From contig JABCZH010000008.1 of assembly GCA_013289795.1 (NCBI GenBank), positions 1 to 64,000 on the forward strand: a stretch of DNA of 64,000 nt, written 5' to 3'. Each line of letters begins with the position of its first letter. The first letter of the stretch is position 1. The DNA is from Acidobacteriota bacterium. GTDB lineage: Bacteria > Acidobacteriota > Terriglobia > Terriglobales > Acidobacteriaceae. The notes under the pieces were generated by a model, which saw only the letters and a list, made by a program, of their open reading frames with translations, ran no database searches and was not told the origin of the DNA. Position numbers and translations under genes: made by a program. Shown one piece after another: positions 1,490 to 33,315 of this stretch.

Positions 1490-2800
1490 ATGTCGAACCG
1501 CATCGCACGGCCGATGTCAAGAACGACGGCCCGCCGGGCCCATGCCCTGACGGTGGGAATTCTTTTCCTGCTCTGCCTCGGTTGCGGCGAAACCTACCGC
1601 CCGGTGGCCAATCCCGTCATTCCCAACCAGCCCAACCCCGCCTTTACTCACGTAGTCATGGTGATCAGCGACAATGGCGTCAACAATCCCGGGGCCAGCA
1701 CCACCATTGACGTTTCCGGAGACACCGCCACGTCACAGTCGCAAACCGGTCTGGGCCCGGTGCACGCCGCGCTGACAAGTGGGACCCAGGTTTTTGTCGC
1801 CAATAGTCTGGAAGACACAGTCTCGGAGTTTAGCGTTGCCGGTCCGGCTCCGGTCATCACTATCAGCTTGCCATCCTTCTGCGGTTCGCCGCCGTGTTCG
1901 ATGCCGGTTTTCATCGGCGGCACCGAGACTGGCACGGTTTACGTTGCCAACTCGAAGGGCAATACGGTTTCGGCAATCGCCACCGCAACCGACTTGGTCA
2001 CCAACAACATCACCGTGGGAACCAGTCCGGTTTCCCTTGCGGAGACGCCCGACACTCAGAAGGTGTACGTGGCCAATCAGGGGACGAATGGCAGCGGCGG
2101 TTCAGTCACCGCCATCAACACTGTGGACAAGAGCGTGGTTGTAAATCCTCCGCTGGCGAATTTCGGATGGGTTTCGCCGGCGTGGGTCGTCGCCCGATCC
2201 GACAGTCAAAGAATCTATGTGCTCGATCAGGGAAGCGGCCTGGTGGCGGCGATTGATACCTCTTCCGATGCCGTCGTCAGCAGCTTCTCAGTTGGCATCG
2301 GGGCCAATTTCATGATCTACGATTCCCGTCTCAACCGTATTTACGTGGTCAACCCAGCCGCCAACACCGTAACCTCCCTCGATGCCAGCACCGATACTCT
2401 CCCGGCCACGCCGATATCCGTCGCCAATCCGAAATCGGTGGCGGCGCTCCCCGATGGCACGCGGTTATATATTTCCAGCGGCACGGTCAGCGGTGCAACC
2501 GTGACCTCAAAGGTGACGGTAATCAACGCCGCCAATTTCACCGTCAAGACGACGATTCCGATTACATCTGTTAAGGCGTTTTGTACAGTGAAAACCTGGG
2601 CCGAACTCTCGGTTGCGGCAGCCGCGGATAGTTCGAGGGTTTACGTTGGGAATTGTGATGCGGGGGATACGGCGATTATTCAGACTTCCAATGACACCTT
2701 AGTGACGCAGATGCCGGCGCCCTTCAGCGCCCGCAAACCGTCAACCGACGGTGGAACTCCTCCGCCACAGAATCCGGTGTTTGTTCTGGCCGGGCCATAG
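1490..2800 (+). CDS. YVTN-type beta-propeller lipoprotein
   Basis: A secreted protein of about 436 aa. After a basic N-terminus, a hydrophobic stretch ends in LCLGC, a good lipobox, so the mature protein probably starts at that Cys as a lipoprotein. The body is built from repeats of the YVTN/cytochrome-D1-like propeller type (for example VYVANSKGNTVSAI, KVYVANQGTNGSGG, RIYVVNPAANTVTSL), about seven blades. The ATG at 1490 gives a normal signal sequence; the longer frame starts at a GTG at 1436 and adds residues that do not look like a signal. Function is unknown; such proteins often mediate surface interactions or scaffold complexes. It runs convergent to the chemotaxis operon with only about 12 bp between stops. 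Confidence 0.75.
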   Translation: MSNRIARPMSRTTARRAHALTVGILFLLCLGCGETYRPVANPVIPNQPNPAFTHVVMVISDNGVNNPGASTTIDVSGDTATSQSQTGLGPVHAALTSGTQVFVANSLEDTVSEFSVAGPAPVITISLPSFCGSPPCSMPVFIGGTETGTVYVANSKGNTVSAIATATDLVTNNITVGTSPVSLAETPDTQKVYVANQGTNGSGGSVTAINTVDKSVVVNPPLANFGWVSPAWVVARSDSQRIYVLDQGSGLVAAIDTSSDAVVSSFSVGIGANFMIYDSRLNRIYVVNPAANTVTSLDASTDTLPATPISVANPKSVAALPDGTRLYISSGTVSGATVTSKVTVINAANFTVKTTIPITSVKAFCTVKTWAELSVAAAADSSRVYVGNCDAGDTAIIQTSNDTLVTQMPAPFSARKPSTDGGTPPPQNPVFVLAGP

Positions 2801-2812
2801 AATTTATCGACC

Positions 2813-3313
2813 CTACTGTCCGACTGCTGCCGCGTGCTCAGATCGATGGGACTGCCCATAACGCAGCGCGATGTTCATGAAAACCTCGCCGATGCCGGTC
2901 TCGAAGCAAATGACTAACGCTTCCGTGTCCTCGCTGCTCTTGGGGCCGTCGTCGGAGGTGTGCAGCACCGGAGGATGGACGCGAAAATGGAATCCTTCAT
3001 TATTGAGCACGGTCACGGCGTTGCCGATCACCTGATTGGCAAGTTCAAAGACGGTTTCCCGCACCAGTGAATCGGTTTCAGGCAGTTCTGTGCCCGCGAA
3101 CTTGCTGGCTACGCGCACCGCGGTCTCGGGATCGAGGTCCAGGATGATTCGGCCTTCGATGTCCCCGGTCACCCAGATCAAAGCCGCGATTCCTTTCCGC
3201 CGGTAAGCCTCCGCCTCCATGCTGAGGTTGCCGATGGACATGGAACATTGCAGGCCCTGCGCCAGCACGGCGTCCGCCGCGTTGATGAAAGGCTGGATCA
3301 ACTCCATCTTCAT
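2813..3313 (-). CDS. cheX: CheX-like chemotaxis phosphatase-fold protein
   Basis: A 166-residue protein matching the CheX/CheC/FliY fold: an N-terminal helix with IQPFINAADAVL, a strand region (GRIILDLDPETAVRVASKF), and the helix ETVFELANQVIGNAV. In the family this last region carries the E-x2-N phosphatase motif, here E-L-A-N. CheX dephosphorylates CheY-P. The chosen ATG is preceded by CAGGAG and lies one base after the cheY stop, so the two are translationally coupled. It is the last gene of the chemotaxis operon, next to its likely substrate CheY. The family assignment is good; activity is inferred. Confidence 0.8.
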   Translation of the reverse strand: MKMELIQPFINAADAVLAQGLQCSMSIGNLSMEAEAYRRKGIAALIWVTGDIEGRIILDLDPETAVRVASKFAGTELPETDSLVRETVFELANQVIGNAVTVLNNEGFHFRVHPPVLHTSDDGPKSSEDTEALVICFETGIGEVFMNIALRYGQSHRSEHAAAVGQ

Positions 3314-3314
3314 T

Positions 3315-3755
3315 TTAGACTCCTGCGGTCGCGCTGTTGGCCACGGTGCCGTCATCTCCCATCACGTACTTGATGACTTCGTACAGCACCTCGGGCTTGA
3401 CCGGTTTCTGCACGAAATGGCGCGCACCACGCTGCAGGGCCGCCACAATGTTCTCCTGATATCCCACCGACGACACCATGACCACGCGCGCTTCGGGATG
3501 CTTCTGCACGATTTTCTCGGCAGCCTCGATCCCCTCCATCTGCGGCATGGTAATGTCCATCAGCACAATATCGGGATTGGTTCGGTCGTATTCGGTGATG
3601 GCGGACATACCGTCTCCGGCTTCGCCGCAAAGCTGGCCCCCGAAGGTCTCGATCATGCGGGCCAGATTCTTGCGAGCGAAAACGGAGTCATCCACCACCA
3701 GGTAGCGGACTGGCTGACCGTCCTTGCTGCGTTTTACTGGTACAAACTGCTCCAT
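3315..3755 (-). CDS. cheY: CheY-like single-domain response regulator
   Basis: A 146-residue protein that is essentially one receiver domain. The acidic pair DD is in VVDDSVFARKN, the phospho-acceptor is Asp67 (IVLMDITMP), the Thr/Ser site is in VMVSS, and the conserved Lys117 is in VQKPVKP. The ATG chosen (second Met of MEVVMEQF) has GGAGG six bases upstream. In the operon it follows cheB and precedes cheX, consistent with a soluble CheY that carries the signal from CheA to the flagellar motor or another output. A longer frame upstream has no ribosome binding site and looks non-coding. Confidence 0.9.
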   Translation of the reverse strand: MEQFVPVKRSKDGQPVRYLVVDDSVFARKNLARMIETFGGQLCGEAGDGMSAITEYDRTNPDIVLMDITMPQMEGIEAAEKIVQKHPEARVVMVSSVGYQENIVAALQRGARHFVQKPVKPEVLYEVIKYVMGDDGTVANSATAGV

Positions 3756-3805
3756 AACAACCTCCATCTGCTGATTAGTCCGGAGCATCGCCCCGGACTT
3801 ACAAC

Positions 3806-4909
3806 TCAACTCTTGCCCGCTCCAGCGGCGCGGCCGTCTGCGGGATCGGTATTCTTGCGCTCCGGCATGCACTGCGCCTGCAAAGTATTGGCCAGCGCTT
3901 CTAATCCGACCACGCGAATCGCATAGCCGCGTTCAATCGCCGCCTTGGGCATGCCGTACACCACGCAGGACTCCTCGTTCTGCGCGATCGTCATTGCCCC
4001 AGCTGCTTTTAACTGGCCCAGGCCCTGCGCGCCATCTTCTCCCATGCCGGTCATCAGTACGCCAAGGCTGTCTTTGCCGAATTCTTCCGCCACACTGCGG
4101 AACAGCACATCCACCGACGGGCGGTGGCCATTGACCCGCGGCTCATCGCTCAGGACGACAACATCCCCCAGCGGCATGCGCTTGACTTTCAAATGACGGC
4201 TGCCGGGACAGACCAGGGCGCGGCCCGCCAGCAACAGATCGCCCGACTGCGCTTCCTTGACCTTGATGGAGCAGATTTCGTCCAGCCGCCGGGAAAACAT
4301 CTCGGTGAATCCTTCCGGCATATGCTGCACTACCAGAATCGTGCCCGCGAAGTCCTTGGGCAATTGCGGCAGCAGATACTGCAAAGCCTGAGGCCCGCCG
4401 GTGGACACGCCGATGGCGACCACGCGAGTGGGGCGCTGCTTGGTGTTGGGCGCCGCCTTTTCAACCGGTCTGGCAGCAGACTGAGACGGCGTCGACACCC
4501 GAATGCCCCGGCTCTGGGCGGCTGCTTTAATCTTAGAGATGAGTTCGTGGGCGATTTCCGGCATGCGCGCGGAAACATCGCTGGGCTTGGCAACGAAATC
4601 AAAAGCCCCCATGGACAGCGCTTTGAGCGTCACCGATGCTCCCTCGGTGCTATGGGAGCTGACCACGATCACCGGCAAGCGGTGCCTGCGCGTGATTTCT
4701 TTCAGCATGTCCAGACCGCCCATGCCCGGCATTTCCAGGTCAAGAGTAATTACCTGGGGCCTTAATTCTTCGATCTTCTTCAGACCGAAGTTGCCATCCA
4801 TGGCCGTGCCCACCACCTGAATCGAGCTATCGGTGGCCAGGATCTGCGGAATCAGCTTGCGCATCAAAGCCGAATCATCAACCACCAGCACGCGGACGGG
4901 TTCGCTCAT
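3806..4909 (-). CDS. cheB: CheB protein-glutamate methylesterase/deamidase
   Basis: A complete CheB of 367 aa. The N-terminal receiver has Asp57 (ITLDLEMPG) and Lys108 (VAKPS). A flexible linker (about residues 130-160) leads to the C-terminal methylesterase domain, where the catalytic triad is visible: Ser169 in GVSTGG, His196 in VQHMPEGF, and Asp292 in GMGEDGAQG. CheB removes methyl groups from glutamates of chemoreceptors and deamidates glutamines when phosphorylated by CheA. Its start overlaps the cheA stop (ATGA), as expected for a tightly coupled chemotaxis operon. Confidence 0.97.
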   Translation of the reverse strand: MSEPVRVLVVDDSALMRKLIPQILATDSSIQVVGTAMDGNFGLKKIEELRPQVITLDLEMPGMGGLDMLKEITRRHRLPVIVVSSHSTEGASVTLKALSMGAFDFVAKPSDVSARMPEIAHELISKIKAAAQSRGIRVSTPSQSAARPVEKAAPNTKQRPTRVVAIGVSTGGPQALQYLLPQLPKDFAGTILVVQHMPEGFTEMFSRRLDEICSIKVKEAQSGDLLLAGRALVCPGSRHLKVKRMPLGDVVVLSDEPRVNGHRPSVDVLFRSVAEEFGKDSLGVLMTGMGEDGAQGLGQLKAAGAMTIAQNEESCVVYGMPKAAIERGYAIRVVGLEALANTLQAQCMPERKNTDPADGRAAGAGKS

Positions 4910-7089
4910 AGCTGCCCTCCCGTCCCCGCCTGCGCGGCTCGCGCCCGTTCGGAATGAGACAGCAACAGCCCCATCGCCGGGCCGGCCCCGGTTCCGGGCC
5001 GTGACTTGGTGAAACGTTCGACGATGGCAGCCAGATTCAGAATCAGTACCACCCGCCCATCGCCGAGGATGGAAGCGCCGCTGACCAGATCGCTCTCAAC
5101 CGTGCGATCGTCGAGCGCCTTGATCACCAGTTCCTCTTCCCCCTCCAACTCATCCACCAAAAGCCCCAGCTTGCGCTCTCCCAGGTTGGTGACCAGTACG
5201 AAGATCTTGCCGTGACGGCGATCGGAAGGGTGATGTTCGGAGATCTCGGTGGTGCGGTTTCCCAAACGGATCACCGGCAGCGCGCGGTTGCGCAACTGCA
5301 AGACCTCGCGATTGTCCACCTGGTGCAGGTCAGACTCCTGCACCCGCGCAATTTCGGCGACGGCGTTCAGAGGAATGGCATAGAGACGCTGCTCCACGCG
5401 GAACAGGAGTGCCTTGATAATGGCCAATGTCAACGGGAGGCACAATCGGAACGTGGTTCCTTGACCGGGTCGAGTCTCAATCTGGATAGTGCCCTTTAGC
5501 CGCTGCAGAATGCTCTGCACTACGTCCAACCCGACGCCGCGTCCTGAGATTTCCGTGATCTCATCGGCCGTGCTGAATCCTGGCCGGAATATGAGGTTGA
5601 GGGCAGTGGCTTCGTCGAGCGTGCCGGATTCCTGCTCGTTCCATAGCCCCTGCTCGAGAGCGCGTGCCTTCACTTTTTGTACGTCGATGCCGCGGCCATC
5701 GTCGCTGATTTCGACCATAACCTGGTTGCCCTGGTGGTAGGCACGCAGATGGATGGTTCCCTGCGCAGGCTTGCCCACGCGCGCGCGCTCCTCCGTACTC
5801 TCAACCCCATGGCTGACCGCGTTCCGCACCAGGTGAGTGAGTGGCTCGGCGATGCCATCGAGCAGTCCCTTGTCGAGGTCCGTGTCCTGTCCGCTCAGCC
5901 GCAGCTCCACGTCCTTGCCGCACTGTTTGGCGACGTCGCGCACCATCCGCGGAAACCGCCGGAACAGTTGCTCCACCGGAACCATGCGGACCTTCATCAC
6001 CGAGCGTTGAAGATCGGTCAGGACCCGCGACTGGAACGCCATGGCATCCGCGAAACGGCTGCGCGTCGAATCCTTGGGATGCTGTCGGGCGAACTCGTTC
6101 AGCGTCCGCTGCAGCATGGATTTGCCAATGATCAGTTCGCCCACCAGGTTGAGCAGGTTATCGATGCGCTCCGCGTCCACTCGCAAAATGTTATCCACAT
6201 GCGAGGGAGCCGCTCTGCCGGCACTTTCATCGTCGTGAGAAGAAGCCCCGGCTGTTTCCTCAGCTTCCGATTGTCGGCATTCCACGCCGGACTCGACCGC
6301 ATATTCGGTGGCCGGCATTTCCGATGGCGTTGCCGCCTTCTGGGCAGGGAGTTCGATGGCGTCAACCTGCGCTTTTGAAACGATGGTAGGAATCTGGCAT
6401 TTCGCAGACAGCAACTGGGCGGTCTTATCGCTCGCCAGCAGCACTTGGATCTGCTTGACCGCTTCTACGGATCCGGCTTCAGGCCGTGACCCCAAAACCT
6501 CTCCTGCTTCAGCCAGCGCCTTGAGCACCAACTGCCGGGCGGCAATGGGCATGGCGCATGCAGGGTCAACCTGAACGCGAATGTGATACAGAAGCTTGCC
6601 CTGGTTAGCCGCCCGCTGCATGGAAAGCTTTTCATACTCAGTCCACACCGCCTGTGCAGTGCTCGATGGCTTGCCTTTCTCGGCGCGAGAACCCCCTGTC
6701 TTGGGACCCCGGGCAAGGTCGCGGACCATTTTTTGCAAGGGCGCAGTGGAGGGAAGCTTGGTCTCGTCACGATACGCGCTCAACATCTCGCTGAACAGGT
6801 CGGCCGCCCGGAAGGCGATTTCCGCCAGCGAACCGTGAGCCGCGGTGGCGTCATCGGCGAGGGCATCTTCCAGCTTGTGTGCCACTTCACTGAGTTCCTG
6901 AAATCCGGTCGCAGCCGCGTCTCCCTTGAGGGTATGCACGATGCGCCGGATGCTGCGCACGGTTTCGCTGTCGCCCGGCTGCTTCTCCAGTTTCAGTGCG
7001 TCTTCATTCAGCGCCTGCAGCAATTCCTGGGAGCTTTCAAAGAACAGCGCCCGCAGTTCTGCTCCGCGCTCGTCCGGGACCCGGCTCAT
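4906..7089 (-). CDS. cheA: CheA chemotaxis histidine kinase
   Basis: A 727-residue CheA. Domain order: N-terminal Hpt with phospho-acceptor His52 (VHTLKGDAAATGF); a variable linker of about 200 residues in place of a clear CheY-binding P2 domain; the dimerisation helices (VDAERIDNLLNLVGELIIGKS); the ATPase domain with N box (HLVRNAVSHGVE), DDGRGID and GRGVGLDVV; and a C-terminal CheW-like domain (LFRVEQRLYAIPLNAVAEI). It phosphorylates CheY and CheB on receptor command. ATGA overlaps on both sides (with cheR and cheB) tie it into the operon. The conserved motifs are intact. Confidence 0.97.
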   Translation of the reverse strand: MSRVPDERGAELRALFFESSQELLQALNEDALKLEKQPGDSETVRSIRRIVHTLKGDAAATGFQELSEVAHKLEDALADDATAAHGSLAEIAFRAADLFSEMLSAYRDETKLPSTAPLQKMVRDLARGPKTGGSRAEKGKPSSTAQAVWTEYEKLSMQRAANQGKLLYHIRVQVDPACAMPIAARQLVLKALAEAGEVLGSRPEAGSVEAVKQIQVLLASDKTAQLLSAKCQIPTIVSKAQVDAIELPAQKAATPSEMPATEYAVESGVECRQSEAEETAGASSHDDESAGRAAPSHVDNILRVDAERIDNLLNLVGELIIGKSMLQRTLNEFARQHPKDSTRSRFADAMAFQSRVLTDLQRSVMKVRMVPVEQLFRRFPRMVRDVAKQCGKDVELRLSGQDTDLDKGLLDGIAEPLTHLVRNAVSHGVESTEERARVGKPAQGTIHLRAYHQGNQVMVEISDDGRGIDVQKVKARALEQGLWNEQESGTLDEATALNLIFRPGFSTADEITEISGRGVGLDVVQSILQRLKGTIQIETRPGQGTTFRLCLPLTLAIIKALLFRVEQRLYAIPLNAVAEIARVQESDLHQVDNREVLQLRNRALPVIRLGNRTTEISEHHPSDRRHGKIFVLVTNLGERKLGLLVDELEGEEELVIKALDDRTVESDLVSGASILGDGRVVLILNLAAIVERFTKSRPGTGAGPAMGLLLSHSERARAAQAGTGGQL

Positions 7090-7991
7090 AGGGCCACCTC
7101 GAGTTTTTGATATGCGGTTCCGGTGTCGCGGTAAACCATGTTGAATTTGTCGGTCAGCCCCAGCAGGCTCTCGGCGTGTCCCACAAACAGATAGCCGCTG
7201 GGATTCAGGCAGCGGCAGAACTTTTCGATCAGCCGTCTTTGTTCGGCTTCATCGAAATACATCATCACGTTGCGGCAGAAAATCACGTCGTAGCGCTGCG
7301 GCAGATACTCAGTCTTCAGATTGTGGAAGTCGAAGTGGACCATTTCCTTCAGCGATTTCTTCACCGCGTAGCGATCGCCAACTTTGTCGAAATGACGCAA
7401 TCGATAGCTGTAGTCCACCGAAGACATCTGATGCTCGCTGTAAGTGCCTTCCTGGCCGGCCCGTAGCACGGAGTAACTGATATCGCTCGCCAGAATTTCC
7501 ACTTTCCACGGCGGTGGGATGAGCGGTTTGGGCACTGGCGGCTCTTTCCCTGAGGGATTGCGCAGGCAGTGGTAGGACACTGCATCCGCTACCAGCATGG
7601 CCATGGTGTAGGCTTCCTGGCCGGTGGAGCATCCCGCGCTCCATAACCGCAGCGAGAAGTCATGCCGTTCCTGCTTGCTGCGCAGCATTTGATCGAGAAT
7701 GTGCTTGTGAAACAAATCCAGCTGTGCCTTGTTACGAAAGAAGCTGGTTTCATTGACGGTGAGGTTTTCCAGCAGCTTGGTGAGTTCTTCCTTGCCCTCG
7801 TGGCTGATCAGAAGGCGGTAGTAGCTGTAGAACGAATCCAGGTGGCATTCCTTGAGACGGCGCTGCAAACGGTCTTGCAGGAAATGGGTGCGGCGTGAAT
7901 CGAAATGCATGCCACACTCCTGATAGACGAGCGTCTGCAGCAGCTTCAATTCGGGTTCCGTAAGTGGCATCTGCACGCCGGGGCTAGCCAT
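7086..7991 (-). CDS. cheR: CheR chemotaxis receptor methyltransferase
   Basis: A CheR of about 301 aa from the ATG at 7991. The N-terminal helical domain (LTEPELKLLQTLVYQECGMHF, read in parts) is followed by the SAM-binding domain with LWSAGCSTGQEAYTMAML, then DISYSVLRAGQEGTY and FCRNVMMYFDEAEQ, all typical of CheR. It methylates glutamates on chemoreceptors and opposes CheB. The start is placed inside the window between the cheW stop at 8017 and the conserved domain; the ribosome binding site is weak (GGAGAAAGAG, rather distant). The 3' end overlaps cheA by four bases. Confidence 0.93.
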   Translation of the reverse strand: MASPGVQMPLTEPELKLLQTLVYQECGMHFDSRRTHFLQDRLQRRLKECHLDSFYSYYRLLISHEGKEELTKLLENLTVNETSFFRNKAQLDLFHKHILDQMLRSKQERHDFSLRLWSAGCSTGQEAYTMAMLVADAVSYHCLRNPSGKEPPVPKPLIPPPWKVEILASDISYSVLRAGQEGTYSEHQMSSVDYSYRLRHFDKVGDRYAVKKSLKEMVHFDFHNLKTEYLPQRYDVIFCRNVMMYFDEAEQRRLIEKFCRCLNPSGYLFVGHAESLLGLTDKFNMVYRDTGTAYQKLEVAL

Positions 7992-8016
7992 GAATTGATT
8001 GGTACTCTTTCTCCAT

Positions 8017-8562
8017 CTATTTGGACGCCGCCGTACCCCGCGCCTCGGTCGCACTCGTTTTTGCTTTGTGCTCGGTCTTGCCGTCGGCCTTGGCTTCGGT
8101 CTTGCCCTCGCCGGACGCGCTATTTCCGCCCTGAACGCTGAAGTCCAATAACTTTGTCATGTCGAGCAGAATGATCAGCCGCCCTTTGTGTTTCCCCAAT
8201 CCAGTCACGCACTTCAGCCCGCCCTCAAGGAATTCTGTTGGAGAGGGTTCCACATCCGCGGCCGGAATCTTCAGCACTTCCGACGCAGAATCGACAATCA
8301 AGCCGGAAAGCCTGCCGTTGTGTTCGAGCACCAGAATCCGGTTGCGGCGGTTAGGCACGACGTTGCTTTCCCCCAGCCGCTTCCTCAAGTCCTGCACGGA
8401 TACGATCTTGCCGCGCAGATTGATCACGCCTTCCATATACGCAGGTGCGTCGGGGACGGCGGTGATTTCCGGAACTCGCACGATTTCATGCAGCGAAGTG
8501 ATGGGCGCGCCATAGGTTTCGCGTCCCACCCGGAAGCCGACAATGTGCAGTTCGCGGTTCAT
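8017..8562 (-). CDS. cheW: CheW-like chemotaxis coupling protein
   Basis: A 181-residue CheW. The SH3-like core is clear: FRVGRETYGAPITSLHEIV, the central MEGVINLRGKIVSVQDLRKRL, and LIVDSASEVLKIPAADVEPS. CheW links chemoreceptors to CheA. The last 30 or so residues are a Lys/Glu/Ala-rich tail (SGEGKTEAKADGKTEHKAK) that is not part of the fold. The ATG at 8562 is preceded by GGAAAG and lies 16 bp after the receptor gene stop. An upstream extension of the frame overlaps the receptor gene and is not coding. Confidence 0.93.
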   Translation of the reverse strand: MNRELHIVGFRVGRETYGAPITSLHEIVRVPEITAVPDAPAYMEGVINLRGKIVSVQDLRKRLGESNVVPNRRNRILVLEHNGRLSGLIVDSASEVLKIPAADVEPSPTEFLEGGLKCVTGLGKHKGRLIILLDMTKLLDFSVQGGNSASGEGKTEAKADGKTEHKAKTSATEARGTAASK

Positions 8563-8578
8563 CGCAGTTCTTTCCGTT

Positions 8579-10567
8579 TCAACCCTGCGCCCCGGCAGCC
8601 GCCTGGCGCGCGTTGGCCAGTGTGGATTTATCCATGCGCCTTCCCGTGACCCGTTCCAGTTGTTCCAGCGCAAAGCGATCCATGGAGTCAAGCAAGTCGC
8701 GGGACATCTTCGACATCTGCTCGGCGGAGGCCGCCAGTTCAGTCGATCCCGAAGTAGTCTGCTGCACCAGTTCCCGCATCCGCTCCATGGCTTTGACCAC
8801 CGCGTGCGCTCCCGAGGCCTGCTCTTCCACCGCAGAATTGATCTCGTGGGTGATTTCGTTCAAGCGGGTGGTGGCGCGGGCGATCTGCGCCGAGCCATGT
8901 GACTGTTCATTGGTAGCTGCGCCAATTTCCTGCGCGAACTTGTACACCTCGGTGACCACGTTGGAAATTTTGCGCAACGCGGTGTTGAGTTCCTGCCCCA
9001 GACCCAGTCCTTCGTTGACAATCCCGGTGCTACGGTTCATGTTCTCAACCGCTTTGCGCGCCTCTTTCTGGATGCTTTGAATGAGGTCGGAAATCTCCTT
9101 GGTGGATTGGGCGGATTTTTCCGCCAGCTTGCGAACTTCATCCGCAACCACGGCAAAGCCCAATCCGTGCTCGCCAGCGCGTGCGGCTTCGATGGCCGCG
9201 TTGAGCGCCAGCAGGTTGGTTTGTTCGGCTAGGTCGTCGATCACCTCGATGATCTTGCCGATGTCGTCCGCTCTTTGGCCCAACACGTCGATGATTTCGC
9301 CGGAAGACTGAATCGTGGTGTTGATCCGGTTCAATCCATCGGTCGCCTTGTCCATGGTCGAGATGCCGCTGTGCACCTCCTCGCGGGAGCGGTTCGAGAT
9401 GTCCAGCAGCACTTTCGCGGTGTCGGCCACGCGCTGAATGGAGGCCACCATCTGATCGATGGAAGCTGAGGTCTCGCTGACGCTTGACGCCTGGGTTTGC
9501 GTGCTCTTAACCATGTTCTGCACGTTGACGCTCATTTCGTGCATGGTGCTGGTGACTTCGTCGATGGCCGACGAAGTCTGCAAACTGATCTTGGCGGATT
9601 CGTCGGAGGCCCCGGCCACTTGATTGGAGGCGCTGGCCACTTGCGAGGCAGCGTCCCGCACGTTGCGCACCAGGTTCCTGAGGCCTTCGATCATGCTCAC
9701 GAAGGCTTTGCCCAGAGTGTCATTCTTCGATCGCGGTTCGACTTCGACGTTCAGGTTCCCGCCGGCGATCGCTTCCGAGACCGCTGCCATCTCCTTGAGG
9801 TAGGTCACCATGGCCGCAAAGCTCCGCGACAACTCGCCGATTTCATCGCGGCGGCCGAGGTCGATTTCGTGGTCCAGATCGCCGGCATTGCCGATCTGCC
9901 GCGCCACTTTCATCAGATTGCGCAGCGGCTCCGTGATCGACCTGGAGGTGGAGTAGGCGATGGCGATGCCCAGGGCCAGTGCCAGAAGAGTGCTGATCAA
10001 CGCGATGACGATGGTGGCGGTGGCGGCGGTTTCATCCGACTTTCGCCGGAGTTCGAGGACCTTGGTGTTTTCCAGATCGGCTACTTCCAGAGAATCGGTG
10101 GCGGCTTTGACCCAGGAGGACGCATCTTTTTGCAGGTAGAAAATCTGCAGCTCAGCCACTGTGGCATTGCCACTGTCCACGTCTTTGCGTTTCTCGATCA
10201 ACGTTGCCGCAAAATCCCGTCCCCAGTTCTGCTCGCTGGTTTGCACCTTTGCCAGAGCGGCTTTCTGCTGCTCCGAATTGGCCAGGTTCTGGGCCGTTTG
10301 CAGGGATTCCTGTAGGATGCGCAGGCCGTCGTTCAGCCTCTCGACTTCACGGGTATCTCCGCTCAGCAGATAGTTGCTCAAATACAACCGGTTCTGCATC
10401 ATCTGAAACCGGATCTTGTCGTTGGTCTGCGCCATCTGCAACGCCTGCGATGCCGCAGCCTTGGCGCTGTGTTCCCGCTGCACGGCGACCAGATTGACGA
10501 GGAACAGCACCACCACCATCGCAAGCACCGCGCCAAAATTCACATAGAGCTTCTTGCCAATCGTCAT
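8579..10567 (-). CDS. Methyl-accepting chemotaxis protein
   Basis: A 662-residue chemoreceptor. A first membrane segment (about residues 8-28, VLAMVVVLFLVNLVAV) is followed by a helical periplasmic sensor domain of roughly 150 residues, a second membrane segment (about 183-205, TIVIALISTLLALALGIAIA), a HAMP domain, and a long signalling coiled coil. The highly conserved hairpin tip is present (ALNAAIEAARAGEHGLGF and VVADEVRKLAEKS). No C-terminal CheR-docking pentapeptide of the NWETF type is visible. As first gene of the che operon it is the likely dedicated receptor; the sensor region resembles four-helix-bundle types and its ligand cannot be told. Confidence 0.93.
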   Translation of the reverse strand: MTIGKKLYVNFGAVLAMVVVLFLVNLVAVQREHSAKAAASQALQMAQTNDKIRFQMMQNRLYLSNYLLSGDTREVERLNDGLRILQESLQTAQNLANSEQQKAALAKVQTSEQNWGRDFAATLIEKRKDVDSGNATVAELQIFYLQKDASSWVKAATDSLEVADLENTKVLELRRKSDETAATATIVIALISTLLALALGIAIAYSTSRSITEPLRNLMKVARQIGNAGDLDHEIDLGRRDEIGELSRSFAAMVTYLKEMAAVSEAIAGGNLNVEVEPRSKNDTLGKAFVSMIEGLRNLVRNVRDAASQVASASNQVAGASDESAKISLQTSSAIDEVTSTMHEMSVNVQNMVKSTQTQASSVSETSASIDQMVASIQRVADTAKVLLDISNRSREEVHSGISTMDKATDGLNRINTTIQSSGEIIDVLGQRADDIGKIIEVIDDLAEQTNLLALNAAIEAARAGEHGLGFAVVADEVRKLAEKSAQSTKEISDLIQSIQKEARKAVENMNRSTGIVNEGLGLGQELNTALRKISNVVTEVYKFAQEIGAATNEQSHGSAQIARATTRLNEITHEINSAVEEQASGAHAVVKAMERMRELVQQTTSGSTELAASAEQMSKMSRDLLDSMDRFALEQLERVTGRRMDKSTLANARQAAAGAQG

Positions 10568-27823: not shown

Positions 27824-29545
27824 CTACGGCAGGGTGAAGTTTACGGTGATCTGAGTTTGGATTTCCGTGGGCTGGCTGTTCAGAAGATACGGTTTGTATT
27901 TCCACTGTTTGACCGCGTCCATGGCGGCGTGCGCCAACACCGGCTCACCCTTGAGCAACTTGACGGCGGTGATGTCGCCGTCTTTGCTGATGGTTGCCAG
28001 CAACAGCACCGAGCCTTGGGTGTGTGACTTCATGGCTCGCGGAGGATAGACGGGAGCGACTTTCTTAATCAGCAGTCCCTGCGATACTCCCTGCGATACT
28101 TTGAGGGTCTCAGGACCGGGCTGGGGAACCGAGTTCGGCATATTCATTAGGCCGGAAATTGCGCTGTCGTTTGACTGCGAGTCGGCGGTCACGGAGTCGG
28201 GAGCGGCGGCGTCTACGGTTTCTACGGGTGCGGGTTTGGATGCGGCCGGTCTCGGACTTTTGGTGTCGACGAAGACCGTGCCCTCGCCGATCTCCTTTAC
28301 CACTCCGGGCGGCGTGGCCGGATCGAACGAGGTGGCGTTCACCGTGGATCTTTTGGGAGCGGGCGCGAGCACAATCGTTTCAGTGGCGGGTGAAGGTTTC
28401 TGGGGAATTGCTGTCGTCGTGGTCGAACTCTGGTTGGGATTCTGTAGGACGGTCGTGGCCCCACTTGGTTGCAAGAGCGCGCCGGTCACTGCGGCGGGAG
28501 AGGCCGCCGCCGGCTTTGCAATTTGTGGAGTTGCAGCAGCGGATGTGCGTTGCAGCAGAGATGATACTGGCGGCATGTGCCAGTGCATCTGGGTTCCGGC
28601 GCGATAGATGGCACCGCCGGCCGCGGACACCAGAATGATGGCGGCGATGCGGCCCCAATTGACGGACGACCCACCGGTGCGCGGCTTCACCACAGCTACG
28701 GCGCTCGAGCTGGAGTGATGAGATTCTTCCTGGTCAAAGTCTGGTTCCCTCGCGGGCGCAACCGCGGCACCGTGGCCGACGCTGATGCTGGAGTCGGGTC
28801 TGCCGGTGGCCTCGGCGGCGTGCTTGAGCGCCGACGTCATTCCTTCGGCCATGGGTTCGGCCATGGGCTTGCGAACCGGCTGCCAGGGATATTGTTTGGG
28901 CGCCGATATTCCCGCTTCTGGGGCGTGAATTGGGCCGGCCTGATCCGACACAGACTCGAGGAACGCGGCTTCCGCCGGCTCGGGTTCGGGAGTGGGCTCT
29001 TTCTCCAGTTCAAAGGCTGAGCTGGACGAGGCCATGACTGCCGGCGCCAGCGGAGGCGCCGCGTGAGTCAAAAATGCGGGCTTTGCGGAAAGCACAGGGG
29101 CGGAAACAGGCTGCGGCGAAGATGCAAACGGAGAGCGCGGAGCTTCGGGCGCTTTTCCCGATGTCTTGGCGGCTTCGTTCTTGCGTAACAGGCCGCGCGC
29201 TACCCGCAACGTGCCTTTGGACTGCTCTACATTAATAGGTTTGGTGAGCACCAAGTTAGCGCCGATGCGGAAAGCCTTGGCCACTCCGCTTTGTCCCTCG
29301 ACCACCGCGACCGAGAGAGACGCCTGATTGAACTCGGAATTGCGCGCGCTCTTGAACAGCAGAGTCGCATTCTGCTCATTGTCACAATCGACCACCACGG
29401 CGTCGAAGTGCCCCGCCATCAGCTTCTTAACGGCGGCGAAAGGCTCATTGCAGGCTTCCACCTGAAATTCCAGTTCACTCAGGACCTGGGTCACCGTCTT
29501 GGCAGTTCTTTCGTCGGGACAGAATAAGAGGGCCTTATAGCTCAT
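27824..29545 (-). CDS. Receiver-like domain fused to TonB C-terminal domain
   Basis: A 573-residue protein with unusual architecture. Residues 1-125 form a CheY-like receiver (ALLFCPDERTAKTVTQVL, Asp in AVVVDCDNEQ, Lys in VLTKPIN). A Pro/Ala/Ser-rich region follows, then one membrane segment near residue 300 (GRIAAIILVSAAGGAIY), another long linker, and a C-terminal TonB domain (VAPVYPPRAMKSHTQGSVLL, AMDAVKQWKYKPYLL). This puts the receiver in the cytoplasm and the TonB domain in the periplasm, suggesting signal control of a TonB function. Similar proteins may be common in acidobacteria, but the role is unknown. Confidence 0.8.
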   Translation of the reverse strand: MSYKALLFCPDERTAKTVTQVLSELEFQVEACNEPFAAVKKLMAGHFDAVVVDCDNEQNATLLFKSARNSEFNQASLSVAVVEGQSGVAKAFRIGANLVLTKPINVEQSKGTLRVARGLLRKNEAAKTSGKAPEAPRSPFASSPQPVSAPVLSAKPAFLTHAAPPLAPAVMASSSSAFELEKEPTPEPEPAEAAFLESVSDQAGPIHAPEAGISAPKQYPWQPVRKPMAEPMAEGMTSALKHAAEATGRPDSSISVGHGAAVAPAREPDFDQEESHHSSSSAVAVVKPRTGGSSVNWGRIAAIILVSAAGGAIYRAGTQMHWHMPPVSSLLQRTSAAATPQIAKPAAASPAAVTGALLQPSGATTVLQNPNQSSTTTTAIPQKPSPATETIVLAPAPKRSTVNATSFDPATPPGVVKEIGEGTVFVDTKSPRPAASKPAPVETVDAAAPDSVTADSQSNDSAISGLMNMPNSVPQPGPETLKVSQGVSQGLLIKKVAPVYPPRAMKSHTQGSVLLLATISKDGDITAVKLLKGEPVLAHAAMDAVKQWKYKPYLLNSQPTEIQTQITVNFTLP

Positions 29546-30067
29546 AGTGGCATGGTAGGTACCTACGTGCAGAGCTACAAGTTACGGAGGTCATTGGACT
29601 TGCAGGGGGTTAGGGAGCCGCGGCCACCAATGCCTTCAGGATGTACACACGATTGGCTAAACGTGCGCTGAGCCATTGACCGGCTTGCATCGCCTGGACT
29701 ATATCTGACGCGAAGGAGACCCTAAAACAGTCGGCCCAAGACTGTCCACGTGCGATCTTGCAAGAAAAGGAATGGTACGACTTAAGGGCAGATAATCGCG
29801 CCGCACCTCAGCGGTAATTGGCTGTCACTTGCTTGCTTCCGAACTATTCTCCCGACTTACCTTGATGCCAGTATCTCGTTCATTTGCAACAACGGCTCTG
29901 GCCTGAATTGTTGCTTGACACCTTCAGGGGCTAGCCTATACTGGCCGTGCCACACTGACTAGCGTTCGCTTCGTCCCACAGCGCTGGTTGATGTTCCAAT
30001 TCTCCACTTGTAAACGACGTTCTTACCTAGCCGTTTATTTCTGGACCGACCGCAGGAGTAGAAAGTC
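29546..30067 (+). promoter_or_regulatory. Intergenic region with strong promoter at 29915-29942
   Basis: A 522-bp region between divergent genes. It contains a near-consensus plus-strand promoter: TTGACA (29915-29920), 16-bp spacer, TATACT (29937-29942), about 125 bp before the next gene, which leaves a long leader. I see no gene or clear riboswitch fold in the rest. Confidence 0.6.
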
Positions 30068-31093
30068 ATGAAGACTCGAATCGTGATCGGCGTGTCTCTG
30101 AGTGTGGTAGTTCTGGCGATGGCGAACTTATTCGTAAGCCATGCGCAGCAGGCGGTCATCCGACCGTCACAGGCCCAGCCAGAATCGCAGATGATCCAGC
30201 CTCCTAAGTTGGATGTGGGAGCGCGGCTGAATCCGCTGAAGATTGCGCTGCTGCACTGGTACTTGGCCGACACTTCGACTTCAGTGACTGTGGGGAGCCA
30301 GCCCTACGGCGTGTGCTTTGATGGAGCCAATATCTGGACGGCGAACTCTGGCGATAACACCGTCACCAAGGTGCAGGCTAGCACCGGCCAGGTTTTGGGC
30401 ACATTCAAAGTAGGAGGTCTGCCCTATGGGGTCACTTTTGACGGAGCCAATGTTTGGGTATCGAATCAGGCCGACGGCACGGTCACCAAGCTGCGGGCCT
30501 TCGACGGCAAGAACCTCGGGACCTTCGCCGCAGGTACATTTCCCAGTTGGATGGCCTTTGACGGACAGAACCTTTGGATACCGAACAGTCCAAGTGTGGG
30601 TGCAGGCACTGTCACAAAGTTGCGGGTGGGCGATGGGAAGATCCTGGGGAGCTTCGGGGTGGGGGTCGGGCCCATTGCTACGGCATTTGACGGTTCAAGC
30701 GTATGGGTGACGAACTATGGGTCTGCCACCGTGACCAAGCTGCGGGCCTCTGACGGCACAGTTCTAGGAACGTTCGGGGTCGGTAATGGGGCGCTGGGTA
30801 TCGCCTTCGACGGAGCGAATATGTGGATCGCCAACCGGAACGGCGGCACTGTGACCGAGTTGCGGGCCAGTGATGGCGCGGTGCTGGGCAGTTTCTCTAC
30901 GCCCGACGGCCCATACGGGATCGCTTTCGATGGCACGTACATTTGGGTAACGGGCGATGTTTACATCTTTGTGCTGCGGGCGAGTGACGGCGCTCAGGTA
31001 ACCTTCCGACAGTTGCAGAGCGAAGGTGTTGCCTTCGACGGAGCCTACATTTGGACTGCTGCGCAAGGCGGAAGTCGTCTGCTGAAATTCTAG
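30068..31093 (+). CDS. Secreted beta-propeller protein (NHL/YVTN-like)
   Basis: A 341-residue protein with a signal peptide (VIGVSLSVVVLAMANLFVSH, cleaved after HAQ). The rest is seven to eight repeats of about 42 residues, each with FDGANIW or FDGTYIW, then a TVTKLRASDGxVLGTFxVG pattern, forming a propeller. This type is often predicted to bind or scaffold outside the cell; no catalytic residues are evident. AGGAG lies nine bases before the ATG. It is followed by another secreted propeller and a pqqA-like gene on the same strand and probably shares their transcript. Confidence 0.8.
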   Translation: MKTRIVIGVSLSVVVLAMANLFVSHAQQAVIRPSQAQPESQMIQPPKLDVGARLNPLKIALLHWYLADTSTSVTVGSQPYGVCFDGANIWTANSGDNTVTKVQASTGQVLGTFKVGGLPYGVTFDGANVWVSNQADGTVTKLRAFDGKNLGTFAAGTFPSWMAFDGQNLWIPNSPSVGAGTVTKLRVGDGKILGSFGVGVGPIATAFDGSSVWVTNYGSATVTKLRASDGTVLGTFGVGNGALGIAFDGANMWIANRNGGTVTELRASDGAVLGSFSTPDGPYGIAFDGTYIWVTGDVYIFVLRASDGAQVTFRQLQSEGVAFDGAYIWTAAQGGSRLLKF

Positions 31094-31145: not shown

Positions 31146-33212
31146 ATGGGAAAGTACCGTAACACTACGCTAGGCTTCTGTGTGTTGGTGTTGCTCACAA
31201 TCGCATCGCAGTACTCGGCGGGTCAAACTTACACAACCAACGTGACAACCTGGCATCAGGACATCCCTGCGATCTGCACGGGTTGCGTCTATCGCACTGG
31301 GCAGAACCTGAGCGAAGGCGCAATCACAATTGCCAACGTTCCAGACACTACCTTCGGCCAGCACTGTTCCTACGATCTGCTGGACGGTCAGGTCTACGGA
31401 CAGCCGCTGGTGGTGACAAACGTCACGATCAACGGTGCGAATTACGGGATCGTCGTCTACGTGGTCACGATGAACGGCACAGTGTACGCATTTGATGGCG
31501 ACCCGCAGGCGCCCATAAGCTGGCCAGCAGGCCAGTGTACCTACGGTACAAGCCACACTGTCGGTCCGATCGCGTCGCAGAGCGTGCTTGGGAGCGCTAG
31601 CCCCGCGAGCTGCGCCAACCTAGGCGGAACAAACTGCCAGACCATAGCGCCTAATGTAGGCATTCTCGGCACGCCGGTCATTAGCACAAAAACCCTCGGC
31701 GACGGCAGTACCGGCGGCACACTTTATCTCGTGGTGGAGTCGCAGTCGGGAACTCCGATTACTTGGAGTCATAAGCTGTGGGCGCTGGACATAACTTTTG
31801 GTGCAGCCGCAGTCCAAGTATTGATATCCCCGCCGAGCGGCGCTTCGCCTGGCTGCTATGGCTTTAACTTCTCGCAATTGCACATTCAGCGTCCGGCGCT
31901 TCTGCTGGGTGGAGATAACTACCTGTACATCGCGTTCTCCATGATGGATGGGTATCCAGCCCCCTTGCCGAATGGAATGATGCTCGCCTACAACACCGTC
32001 GGGCTGAGCGTATCGTCATTGCCGCTCTGCCTGCCTATGTCCGAAGGTAATCCTAACGCTGACGGCGCGGGCATCTGGGGAGGGGGCGGGGGACCGAGTT
32101 ACGGCACTGACAGTGCTACCGGCCACAATTACTTCACCTTCTTCAACACGGGGAACGGTGTTTTCGATCTCAACACTACTGGTGGCATCGACGCGGGCGA
32201 CAGCTTCATCAAGATGTCGAACTCCGGCAGCGCACTATCTATAGCTGACTACTTTACTCCGGGCGACCAATACTGGCGGTCCAACAAGGACAGCGTGCAC
32301 GCAGGTTGCAGTGCCGATGGCGATGTCGATGTGGGTTCGGGAAGCCCAATGCTCGTACCCGACGTCGAGGACAGTAGTCATTCCTTTCTGGCGGTAAGCG
32401 GAGACAAGGAGGGCGGCATCTGGTTTGTGGATCGAGCCAGTCCTGGGAAGGGTGGTACTACGGCGACGTGTACAGGTTCGCCAAACACCAACTTGCAGAC
32501 GTATCCGATCAACGGCACCGCTTTCGCTCTGAAAACCGGTCCTCTCATCCACACGAACCCCGCATTTTGGGAAAGCGGCGACACGACCGGGACGAATTAT
32601 CTTTTCCTTGGCTCATCGGCCGTCTTCTCCGTCGCTGGGGCGGGCGAACTGATGCGCTATCAGATTTGCAACACGGGCCTGCCGATCAATACATCGACCG
32701 GCTGCACAAAGACGGCGGCTTACGCATACGAAGTGTCAGGCACGCCGTTGGTATTTCCATGGGGAACTACGCCCTCGGTATCGCGGGACATAACCACCGA
32801 TACGGATGCCATTGTCTGGACAATCTGGGCCGATGGCAGCGTGATACCAAACAGCGCCGCGTTCACCTGGGATAACAACAACAACCCGCTCCCACACTTT
32901 CCCGCTGCAACGCCCGGCCAACTGATAGCTTTTGAAGCGGCGAAGAGCGGGGACCCGAACATGCCGAAGCTTTATAGCAGCGAGGATTGCATTATTGGGG
33001 GAGTGAACGTAGATCGGATCAATCCGGCAACGAAGTATTCCGTGCCAACCGTGGCTGACGGTCACGTCTATGTGGGAACGCAGGGCCCGCTGGTAGACCC
33101 TGCAAATAACACACAATGCAGTCCCATAAAGAACCCGACTGCCGCCTGCTTCAACCGAGGAACGTTTTACGTGTTTGGAAACATCGGCTTGACCGTGAGA
33201 ACGTGCAGCTAA
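31146..33212 (+). CDS. Secreted PQQ-type beta-propeller protein
   Basis: A 688-residue protein with a signal peptide (LGFCVLVLLTIASQYSAG). Propeller blades of the PQQ-enzyme-like type are visible (VYGQPLVVTNVTINGANYGI, then VYVVTMNGTVYAFD, and VADGHVYVGTQG near the C-terminus). Many Cys residues (for example AICTGCVY, CQTIAPN, CYGFN) suggest disulphides. Whether it binds PQQ cannot be told: the usual catalytic Asp and Ca ligands of quinoprotein dehydrogenases were not identified. A strong GGGAGGAG precedes the ATG. The next gene, 26 bp downstream, encodes a pqqA-like peptide, which makes a quinoprotein role worth testing. Confidence 0.75.
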   Translation: MGKYRNTTLGFCVLVLLTIASQYSAGQTYTTNVTTWHQDIPAICTGCVYRTGQNLSEGAITIANVPDTTFGQHCSYDLLDGQVYGQPLVVTNVTINGANYGIVVYVVTMNGTVYAFDGDPQAPISWPAGQCTYGTSHTVGPIASQSVLGSASPASCANLGGTNCQTIAPNVGILGTPVISTKTLGDGSTGGTLYLVVESQSGTPITWSHKLWALDITFGAAAVQVLISPPSGASPGCYGFNFSQLHIQRPALLLGGDNYLYIAFSMMDGYPAPLPNGMMLAYNTVGLSVSSLPLCLPMSEGNPNADGAGIWGGGGGPSYGTDSATGHNYFTFFNTGNGVFDLNTTGGIDAGDSFIKMSNSGSALSIADYFTPGDQYWRSNKDSVHAGCSADGDVDVGSGSPMLVPDVEDSSHSFLAVSGDKEGGIWFVDRASPGKGGTTATCTGSPNTNLQTYPINGTAFALKTGPLIHTNPAFWESGDTTGTNYLFLGSSAVFSVAGAGELMRYQICNTGLPINTSTGCTKTAAYAYEVSGTPLVFPWGTTPSVSRDITTDTDAIVWTIWADGSVIPNSAAFTWDNNNNPLPHFPAATPGQLIAFEAAKSGDPNMPKLYSSEDCIIGGVNVDRINPATKYSVPTVADGHVYVGTQGPLVDPANNTQCSPIKNPTAACFNRGTFYVFGNIGLTVRTCS

Positions 33213-33237
33213 ACAGGATTAGAATAAGGAGGAAACT

Positions 33238-33315
33238 ATGGAATGGACCACGCCGCAATTTGAAGAAATCAAGCTAAACTGCGAAATCAATTCATACGCC
33301 AGCGCAGTGATGTAG
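33238..33315 (+). CDS. pqqA: PqqA-like precursor peptide
   Basis: A 25-codon gene with an excellent ribosome binding site (AAGGAGG, six bases before ATG). The peptide reads MEWTTPQFEEIKL then NCEINSYASAVM. It has the PqqA pattern: an N-terminal W-x-x-P-x-F/V-x-E-I leader and the E-x3-Y pair (Glu16, Tyr20) that PqqE cross-links to make pyrroloquinoline quinone; the EINSY stretch matches known PqqA peptides. No pqqB, C, D or E is in the window, and the 400 bp downstream hold no gene, so it is an orphan copy beside a PQQ-type propeller gene. Other radical-SAM peptide families are a possible alternative. Confidence 0.8.
   Translation: MEWTTPQFEEIKLNCEINSYASAVM

Follow-up and report, generated by a model that had tools for sequence, protein, structure and literature searches.

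An extra pqqA gene behind a gene for a secreted-looking propeller in an Acidobacteriota genome

Multi-copy and detached pqqA genes are already known in methylotrophs. The accessible parts of the published reports describe (i) 3–12 pqqA copies in the Methylophilaceae, most strains having the remaining pqq genes as a single set (PMC4109929), (ii) multiple pqqA genes that respond to different stimuli in Methylovorus strain MP688 (PMC6520949, citing Ge et al. 2015), (iii) a single pqqA in Methylosinus trichosporium OB3b that was missed by annotation, lies away from pqqBCDE and is expressed like mxaFI, the other pqq genes being low (PMC3615186), and (iv) a second pqqA-pqqE-pqqD set in Hyphomicrobium denitrificans, in which the extra pqqA sits inside an unrelated operon (PMC12423496).

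The locus considered here lies in a 64,000-nucleotide stretch of DNA from a soil-dwelling member of the Acidobacteriaceae, which was analysed whole and is called the window below. It resembles the Methylophilaceae and Methylovorus MP688 in having several pqqA copies and one set of the other genes, OB3b in having a pqqA that is detached and easily overlooked, and H. denitrificans in having an extra pqqA within an unrelated, here probable, operon. There are also differences. The Methylophilaceae and Methylovorus belong to another phylum, and the accessible text states no link of their copies to secreted propeller genes (PMC4109929, PMC6520949); OB3b has one copy, expressed at the mxaFI level, against at least five copies here (PMC3615186); and the extra pqqA of H. 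denitrificans has its own pqqE and pqqD, whereas the window gene comes alone (PMC12423496). In the open-access papers searched, as far as their text was accessible, no description was found of a pqqA behind a propeller gene in Acidobacteriota. By analogy, what is reported of OB3b, the Methylophilaceae and Methylovorus would lend support to demand-like expression of pqqA.

The peptide gene and its neighbours

The open reading frame at 33238–33315 is a real PqqA peptide gene. It and the features around it are as follows, all on the plus strand:

33238–33315, plus strand: pqqA, putatively accessory, encoding a 25-aa PqqA peptide (open reading frame translation, Pfam and NCBIfam models, pN/pS, shuffle test)
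33226–33232, plus strand: ribosome binding site AAGGAGG, five bases ahead of the pqqA ATG (read directly)
31146–33212, plus strand: gene for a 688-aa protein with a signal-peptide-like N-terminus (by eye), a predicted divergent beta-propeller of the PQQ-dehydrogenase/BamB kind (open reading frame, family profile, models)
30068–31093, plus strand: gene for a 341-aa protein whose propeller repeats are of the YVTN/NHL type and whose N-terminus looks like a signal peptide by eye (open reading frame, NCBIfam search, paralogue loci)
29915–29942, plus strand: sigma-70-like promoter match TTGACA-16-TATACT, 11/12, upstream of the probable unit (such sites were found no more often than in shuffles)

The gene translates to MEWTTPQFEEIKLNCEINSYASAVM and a stop, 25 aa with a Glu-x3-Tyr pair at E16 and Y20. 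The initial annotation, a 25-codon gene with a strong ribosome binding site and the PqqA-type E-x3-Y pair, is thus borne out; it had also placed a propeller gene directly upstream, which is correct, at a spacing of 26 bp, which measures 25 bp from the propeller stop. It had further proposed alignment with the PqqA families, and the peptide exceeds the cut-offs of both curated models (PF08042 in Pfam, 25.1 bits against 21.1; TIGR02107 in NCBIfam, an equivalog model, 26.5 against 20). A degenerate pattern of the PqqA core has a single match in the window and none in 100 shuffles, and a PF08042 search that returned the window copy over cut-off in its own genome gave matches in 0 of 14 control genomes. 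Between the window gene and four other copies in the same genome there are 3–5 amino-acid-changing and 5–11 silent differences (pN/pS 0.06 for the copy on contig C2, 0.12 for C17, 0.15 for C15 and 0.13 for C4); because these differences are mainly silent, the peptide is under purifying selection. With both curated models passed, pN/pS low and no match among the shuffles, a chance open reading frame can be rejected.

In its length, its W-x2-P start, its E-x3-Y pair and its curated scores, the peptide is like other PqqA. It departs from the typical case in position, pqqB not following directly and the gene sitting behind a propeller gene, in being one of at least five copies, and in its acidobacterial core, LNCEINSY. 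Only 52 bp separate the 341-aa gene from the 688-aa gene, and the two, with pqqA last, probably form a unit: 341-aa propeller, 688-aa secreted propeller, pqqA. The promoter match ahead of this unit is suggestive only.

Further upstream, the minus strand carries at 27824–29545 a gene for a 573-aa protein of unusual make-up: its C-terminal domain is of the TonB kind (66 bits), and its N-terminus gives a weak response-regulator match that stays below cut-off.

The PQQ pathway and the other copies in the genome

Within the window no gene of the pqqB–E set was noted, and those neighbours that were tested lie outside the PQQ pathway. The pathway is encoded elsewhere in the genome (4.67 Mb, 33 contigs, completeness 99.91): pqqA and pqqB lie together on C2 and pqqC-D-E on C3, and PqqB, PqqC, PqqD and PqqE all exceed their NCBIfam cut-offs. 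The description of the peptide as an orphan therefore holds for its neighbourhood and fails for the genome, and the accompanying idea of a spare precursor able to feed a distant pathway stands; a genome lacking PqqE and PqqD, named there as a refutation, is not what was found. There is a single PqqD (C3:29831–30022) and a single PqqE over cut-off (524.5 bits, C3:28776–29816); the PqqE model finds seven matching places in all, the other six being weak radical SAM matches below cut-off. The second idea of the initial annotation, a peptide made for another radical-SAM enzyme, finds no support in this result, and a separate radical SAM pair is rejected as far as one genome search tells. The genome also encodes, on C9, a genuine PQQ dehydrogenase of the methanol/ethanol family (TIGR03075, 569 bits against a cut-off of 480), adjoining a gene for a protein in which cytochrome-c-like CxxCH motifs can be seen by eye.

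A search for further copies brought the total to at least five, on the window contig, C2, C15, C17 and C4, at least four of them thus additional to the window gene. Four (window, C2, C15 and C17) are over the PF08042 cut-off. The fifth, MEWTTPQFEEISPNCEINSYASAVM on C4, was missed by PF08042 at E 0.001, in keeping with the claim that such genes are easily overlooked, and came to light with a home-made PqqA profile that was run on selected loci only, which makes five a minimum. The window peptide is identical at 23 of 25 positions to the C2 PqqA, whose gene precedes pqqB.

The C2 copy apart, each of the five has a secreted-looking propeller or BNR gene immediately upstream. The C4 copy repeats the window order of 341-aa gene, propeller and pqqA; on C17, a 621-aa propeller and a 485-aa BNR protein (PF13088, 36.7 bits against a cut-off of 31.4) come before pqqA, and on C15 a propeller remnant and a 481-aa BNR protein. 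The window and C4 loci are paralogous, as are those on C15 and C17: the four propeller- or BNR-linked copies are related pairs, arisen by duplication, and not four independent events. The C4 locus may be decaying, since its PqqA has Pro in place of the conserved Leu13 (L13P) and the propeller ahead of it is frameshifted.

This C4 paralogue (stretch C4:58000–70000, at ∼7230 and 6440–6516 of that stretch, minus strand) has the split propeller and Pro13 behind an homologous 341-aa gene.

The propellers themselves are more numerous than the linked pqqA genes. The 688-aa query gives 11 matches at 9 distinct places in its own genome, and pqqA lies behind the propeller, or behind the next gene, at 3 of the 9; the profile built from 12 members of the family gives 15 matches. 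Homologues of the 341-aa gene precede paralogous propellers at four further places, the C4 pqqA locus, C5, C7 and C4:17.7k, the last, like the C15 propeller, a fragment, and at C5, C7 and C4:17.7k no pqqA was found within the 12 kb examined.

On C5 (C5:50000–62000, at ∼5850–10290 of that stretch), three tandem BNR genes and a fragment of a fourth follow the paralogue of the window propeller, and this fragment shares 97.7% identity over 43 aa with the beginning of the C15 BNR protein.

pqqA and propellers across the Acidobacteriota

A genome collection was scanned with the degenerate core pattern that had been tried on the shuffles, E-E-[IV]-x-L-x-C-E-I-N-x-Y, which was built from acidobacterial PqqA and so finds only such PqqA, the scan being no survey of other phyla. 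It returned 102 stretches, all acidobacterial by record title. In 50 of them pqqA stands before pqqB, in 39 it is stand-alone, in 4 it is linked to a propeller or BNR gene, in 1 it is divergent from pqqB and in 1 it precedes pqqC; 7 are of other kinds. In 3 of the 50 pqqB-type stretches, from three genomes, a propeller gene is divergent from pqqA, the propellers being 79–100% similar. The four linked stretches are L088 and L123 (propeller, then pqqA), L146 (BNR gene, then pqqA) and L091 (pqqA, then propeller). Another order, pqqA, a 1263-aa gene and then a propeller, is found in L028 and in L137; the latter is one of the seven unclassified stretches, and its propeller comes ∼4 kb on, as seen in L028. 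Two more of the seven are L052, with pqqA divergent from a PQQ-dehydrogenase-like gene (2734–4404, minus strand; TIGR03075 80 bits, below the cut-off of 480), and L085, with a glutathione-independent formaldehyde dehydrogenase ∼0.7 kb on.

The stand-alone class (39 loci, e.g. L049, L070, L081, L101 and L150) occupies a conserved position, with a divergent GAF-type gene on one side and a WecA-like gene on the other. Its peptides are near-identical, M[QET]WTAPAFEEVCLNCEINSY[AV]SAKL in 27 of 39, and within the stretches examined none of the 39 has a propeller within 3.5 kb. A rule that each detached pqqA goes with a propeller is rejected: 39 of the 102 stretches are syntenic and stand-alone and 7 are unclassified.

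Genomes with a pqqA in a non-canonical place mostly encode PqqE. At E 1e-60 it was matched in 36 of 40 (35 over cut-off), the 40 comprising those of 39 of the 52 non-canonical stretches plus G006; at that threshold there was no match in four assemblies, G146, G150, G155 and G158. G146 (QIAW01) has two similar pqqA genes, one before pqqC at a contig end (L143) and one in L105. In G006, pqqBCDE (L158) has no pqqA within the 13 kb examined, and copies lie elsewhere, one stand-alone (L027) and one before the 1263-aa gene and propeller (L028).

Looked at from the side of the propellers, a search of 150 relatives found 26 homologous places, and within the stretches examined pqqA occurs at 1 of the 26 (L163). 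Among the propeller matches outside the own genome it ranks first (E 5.5e-58); it has the same DNA as L088, and pqqA lies right behind it. At 23 of the 26 places at least 200 bases are readable behind the gene, and 22 of those have no pqqA. Conservation of the peptide in relatives that keep the upstream gene, the lack of which had been named as a refutation, therefore gives a mixed picture: it holds for the closest outside homologue and fails for these 22. A rule that each such propeller has a pqqA is likewise rejected (3 of 9 own places, 1 of 26 in relatives).

Rough estimates can be made of how often such linkage would arise by chance; they take the number of propellers as 12 or 15 in the own genome and as 5 or 13 per 5 Mb in others, and treat the cases as independent, an assumption that duplication breaks. 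A random place in the own genome lies near a propeller with p ∼0.013–0.029 per pqqA. Four linked copies of four would then have a probability of ∼1e-7 if independent; because the own copies are related in pairs, counting them as two events gives the fairer figure, 2e-4 to 8e-4. For the named genomes, in which 3 of 11 pqqA are propeller-linked, the rough estimate is P 1e-4 to 2e-3. The link between propeller and pqqA is real, but it is confined to propellers of the window type and a few others.

The propeller protein and the role of the extra pqqA

Neither Pfam at E 0.1 nor NCBIfam at E 1 returns a match for the 688-aa protein, hence TIGR03075 and TIGR03300 (BamB) are both unmatched, and searched singly against the sequences of solved structures it gave 0 matches at E 1. 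The label of a PQQ-type propeller is thus borne out only in part, and what likeness there is to PQQ enzymes appears in family profiles and structural models. The 12-member profile, searched against solved structures, places the quinohemoprotein alcohol dehydrogenase 1yiq first with a weak E of 0.026, and the five matches listed also include GH43 enzymes and BamB. PF13360 matches 3 of the 12 members (best E 7.8e-7) and PF01011 2 of the 12 (best E 0.00098). Aligned by hhalign with the PQQ dehydrogenase on C9, the family scores a probability of 82 (E 1e-5, 141 columns), with a gap over the D-x-D motif. In this motif the second Asp is invariant in 12 of 12 members and the first is present in at least 90%; a Lys is also invariant in 12 of 12. 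The weak 1yiq alignment (E 0.026) pairs the D-x-D and the Lys with WDY and PKNG of 1yiq, which we take to be quinoprotein active-site positions. The PQQ site of the PQQ-dependent dehydrogenases, which have an eight-bladed propeller, contains a catalytic Asp with a Lys or Arg near it.

The AlphaFold model of the window propeller is poor (pLDDT 47.7, pTM 0.61); Foldseek matches it first to the lanthanide-dependent dehydrogenase PedH (1.6e-7). A relative from L061 gives a better model (pLDDT 62.1, pTM 0.74), for which Foldseek puts PQQ alcohol dehydrogenases in the first three places (5.6e-11 to 1.5e-10) and BamB in the fourth (2.3e-10). With VIA-align, designed propellers and BamB lead for the same model (Z 25–28), BamB being first among natural proteins, and no PQQ dehydrogenase is among the best 50 matches. 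Similarity in profiles and models thus speaks as much for cofactor-free BamB as for PQQ dehydrogenases. With the PQQ-dependent dehydrogenases (TIGR03075, PF01011) and BamB (TIGR03300) the family shares a predicted propeller fold and weak profile similarity; unlike them, the 688-aa protein gives no match to TIGR03075 or TIGR03300 at E 1. To our knowledge, BamB binds no PQQ. PQQ binding by the 688-aa propeller may be considered likely enough to test.

The reading preferred here, with a probability of about 0.65, is that the window gene is an accessory pqqA, used by the shared PqqD and PqqE and probably sharing its transcript with a secreted propeller, itself a possible user of PQQ. Within it, that the gene is a functional PqqA feeding PQQ synthesis is highly probable; whether it stands behind the propeller in order to supply a client that uses PQQ is a nearly even matter, tilting slightly towards no. 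The identity of the peptide, its purifying selection, the presence of PqqB–E in the genome, the five copies and their position behind propeller or BNR genes are observed. What we infer is co-transcription, translation, use by PqqE, PQQ use by the propeller, and a supply matched to demand. The 341-aa gene, the propeller gene and pqqA would be transcribed as one unit with pqqA last, and the peptide would be bound by the one PqqD of the genome, and cross-linked at Glu16–Tyr20 by the one full PqqE, after which PqqB and PqqC would complete the cofactor. Each PQQ made costs one PqqA, and PqqB–E act catalytically; because of this, a spare precursor behind the gene for a secreted PQQ user would raise supply as demand rises. 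This reading draws on the linkage to propeller or BNR genes in and outside the genome, the rough chance estimates, PqqE in most genomes with a non-canonical pqqA, the PQQ dehydrogenase on C9 and the family profile and models; it is weakened by the lack of a Pfam or NCBIfam match for the propeller, the equal nearness of BamB, the many propellers without pqqA, the 39 stand-alone pqqA and the relatedness of the own copies in pairs.

The strongest rival, which we nonetheless consider unlikely, is plain gene dosage: a precursor needed in bulk, pqqA scattered by duplication, and propellers that hitch-hike without using PQQ, as BamB-like or sialidase-like surface proteins. The paralogy of the window and C4 loci and of the C15 and C17 loci would fit this, as would the propellers without pqqA (most in the own genome, 25 of 26 in relatives within the stretches examined), the C15 and C17 copies that follow a BNR gene and not a propeller directly, and the Methylophilaceae, whose 3–12 copies, with one pqqBCDE set in most, come with no client link in the accessible text (PMC4109929); yet propeller or BNR linkage recurs elsewhere with distant propellers (L088, L091, L123, L146, L028), above the rough chance estimate, and the family profile and models carry a PQQ-dehydrogenase-like signal. 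It is very improbable that the window gene is a decaying duplicate, a relic no longer needed: its paralogues do decay (the frameshifted C4 propeller, the L13P change in the C4 pqqA, the propeller fragments at C15 and C4:17.7k), but the window copy is intact, with a strong ribosome site, pN/pS of 0.06–0.15 and a full-length 688-aa gene ahead of it. Least credible of all is a PqqA-like peptide cross-linked for another product, e.g. a signal or a different RiPP cofactor, which would suit a window without any noted pqqB–E and with tested neighbours outside the PQQ pathway but has against it the one PqqD, the one PqqE over cut-off with six weak further matches, the TIGR02107 equivalog score and the 23 of 25 residues shared with the PqqA encoded before pqqB.

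If the preferred reading of an accessory pqqA with a PQQ-using propeller is extended, the propellers may, though this is less likely than not, be a new divergent family of secreted quinoproteins in Acidobacteriota, some of whose operons would carry their own pqqA, as a cassette of client plus precursor, and draw on one shared PqqBCDE set. Were this so, stand-alone and client-linked pqqA genes would be separately regulated taps into one pathway; and if the propellers bind PQQ, pqqA would be a genomic marker pointing to unknown quinoproteins.

For a cofactor made from a ribosomal peptide, the precursor gene can thus lie far from its pathway: in these acidobacteria pqqA is found ahead of pqqB, by itself at a conserved position, or following genes for secreted propellers. 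Among 120 relatives, the own genome counted, 11 show pqqA when searched with the less sensitive Pfam model. Models for short genes overlook some copies, and surveys that require a pqqABCDE cluster will miscount which soil Acidobacteriota make PQQ.
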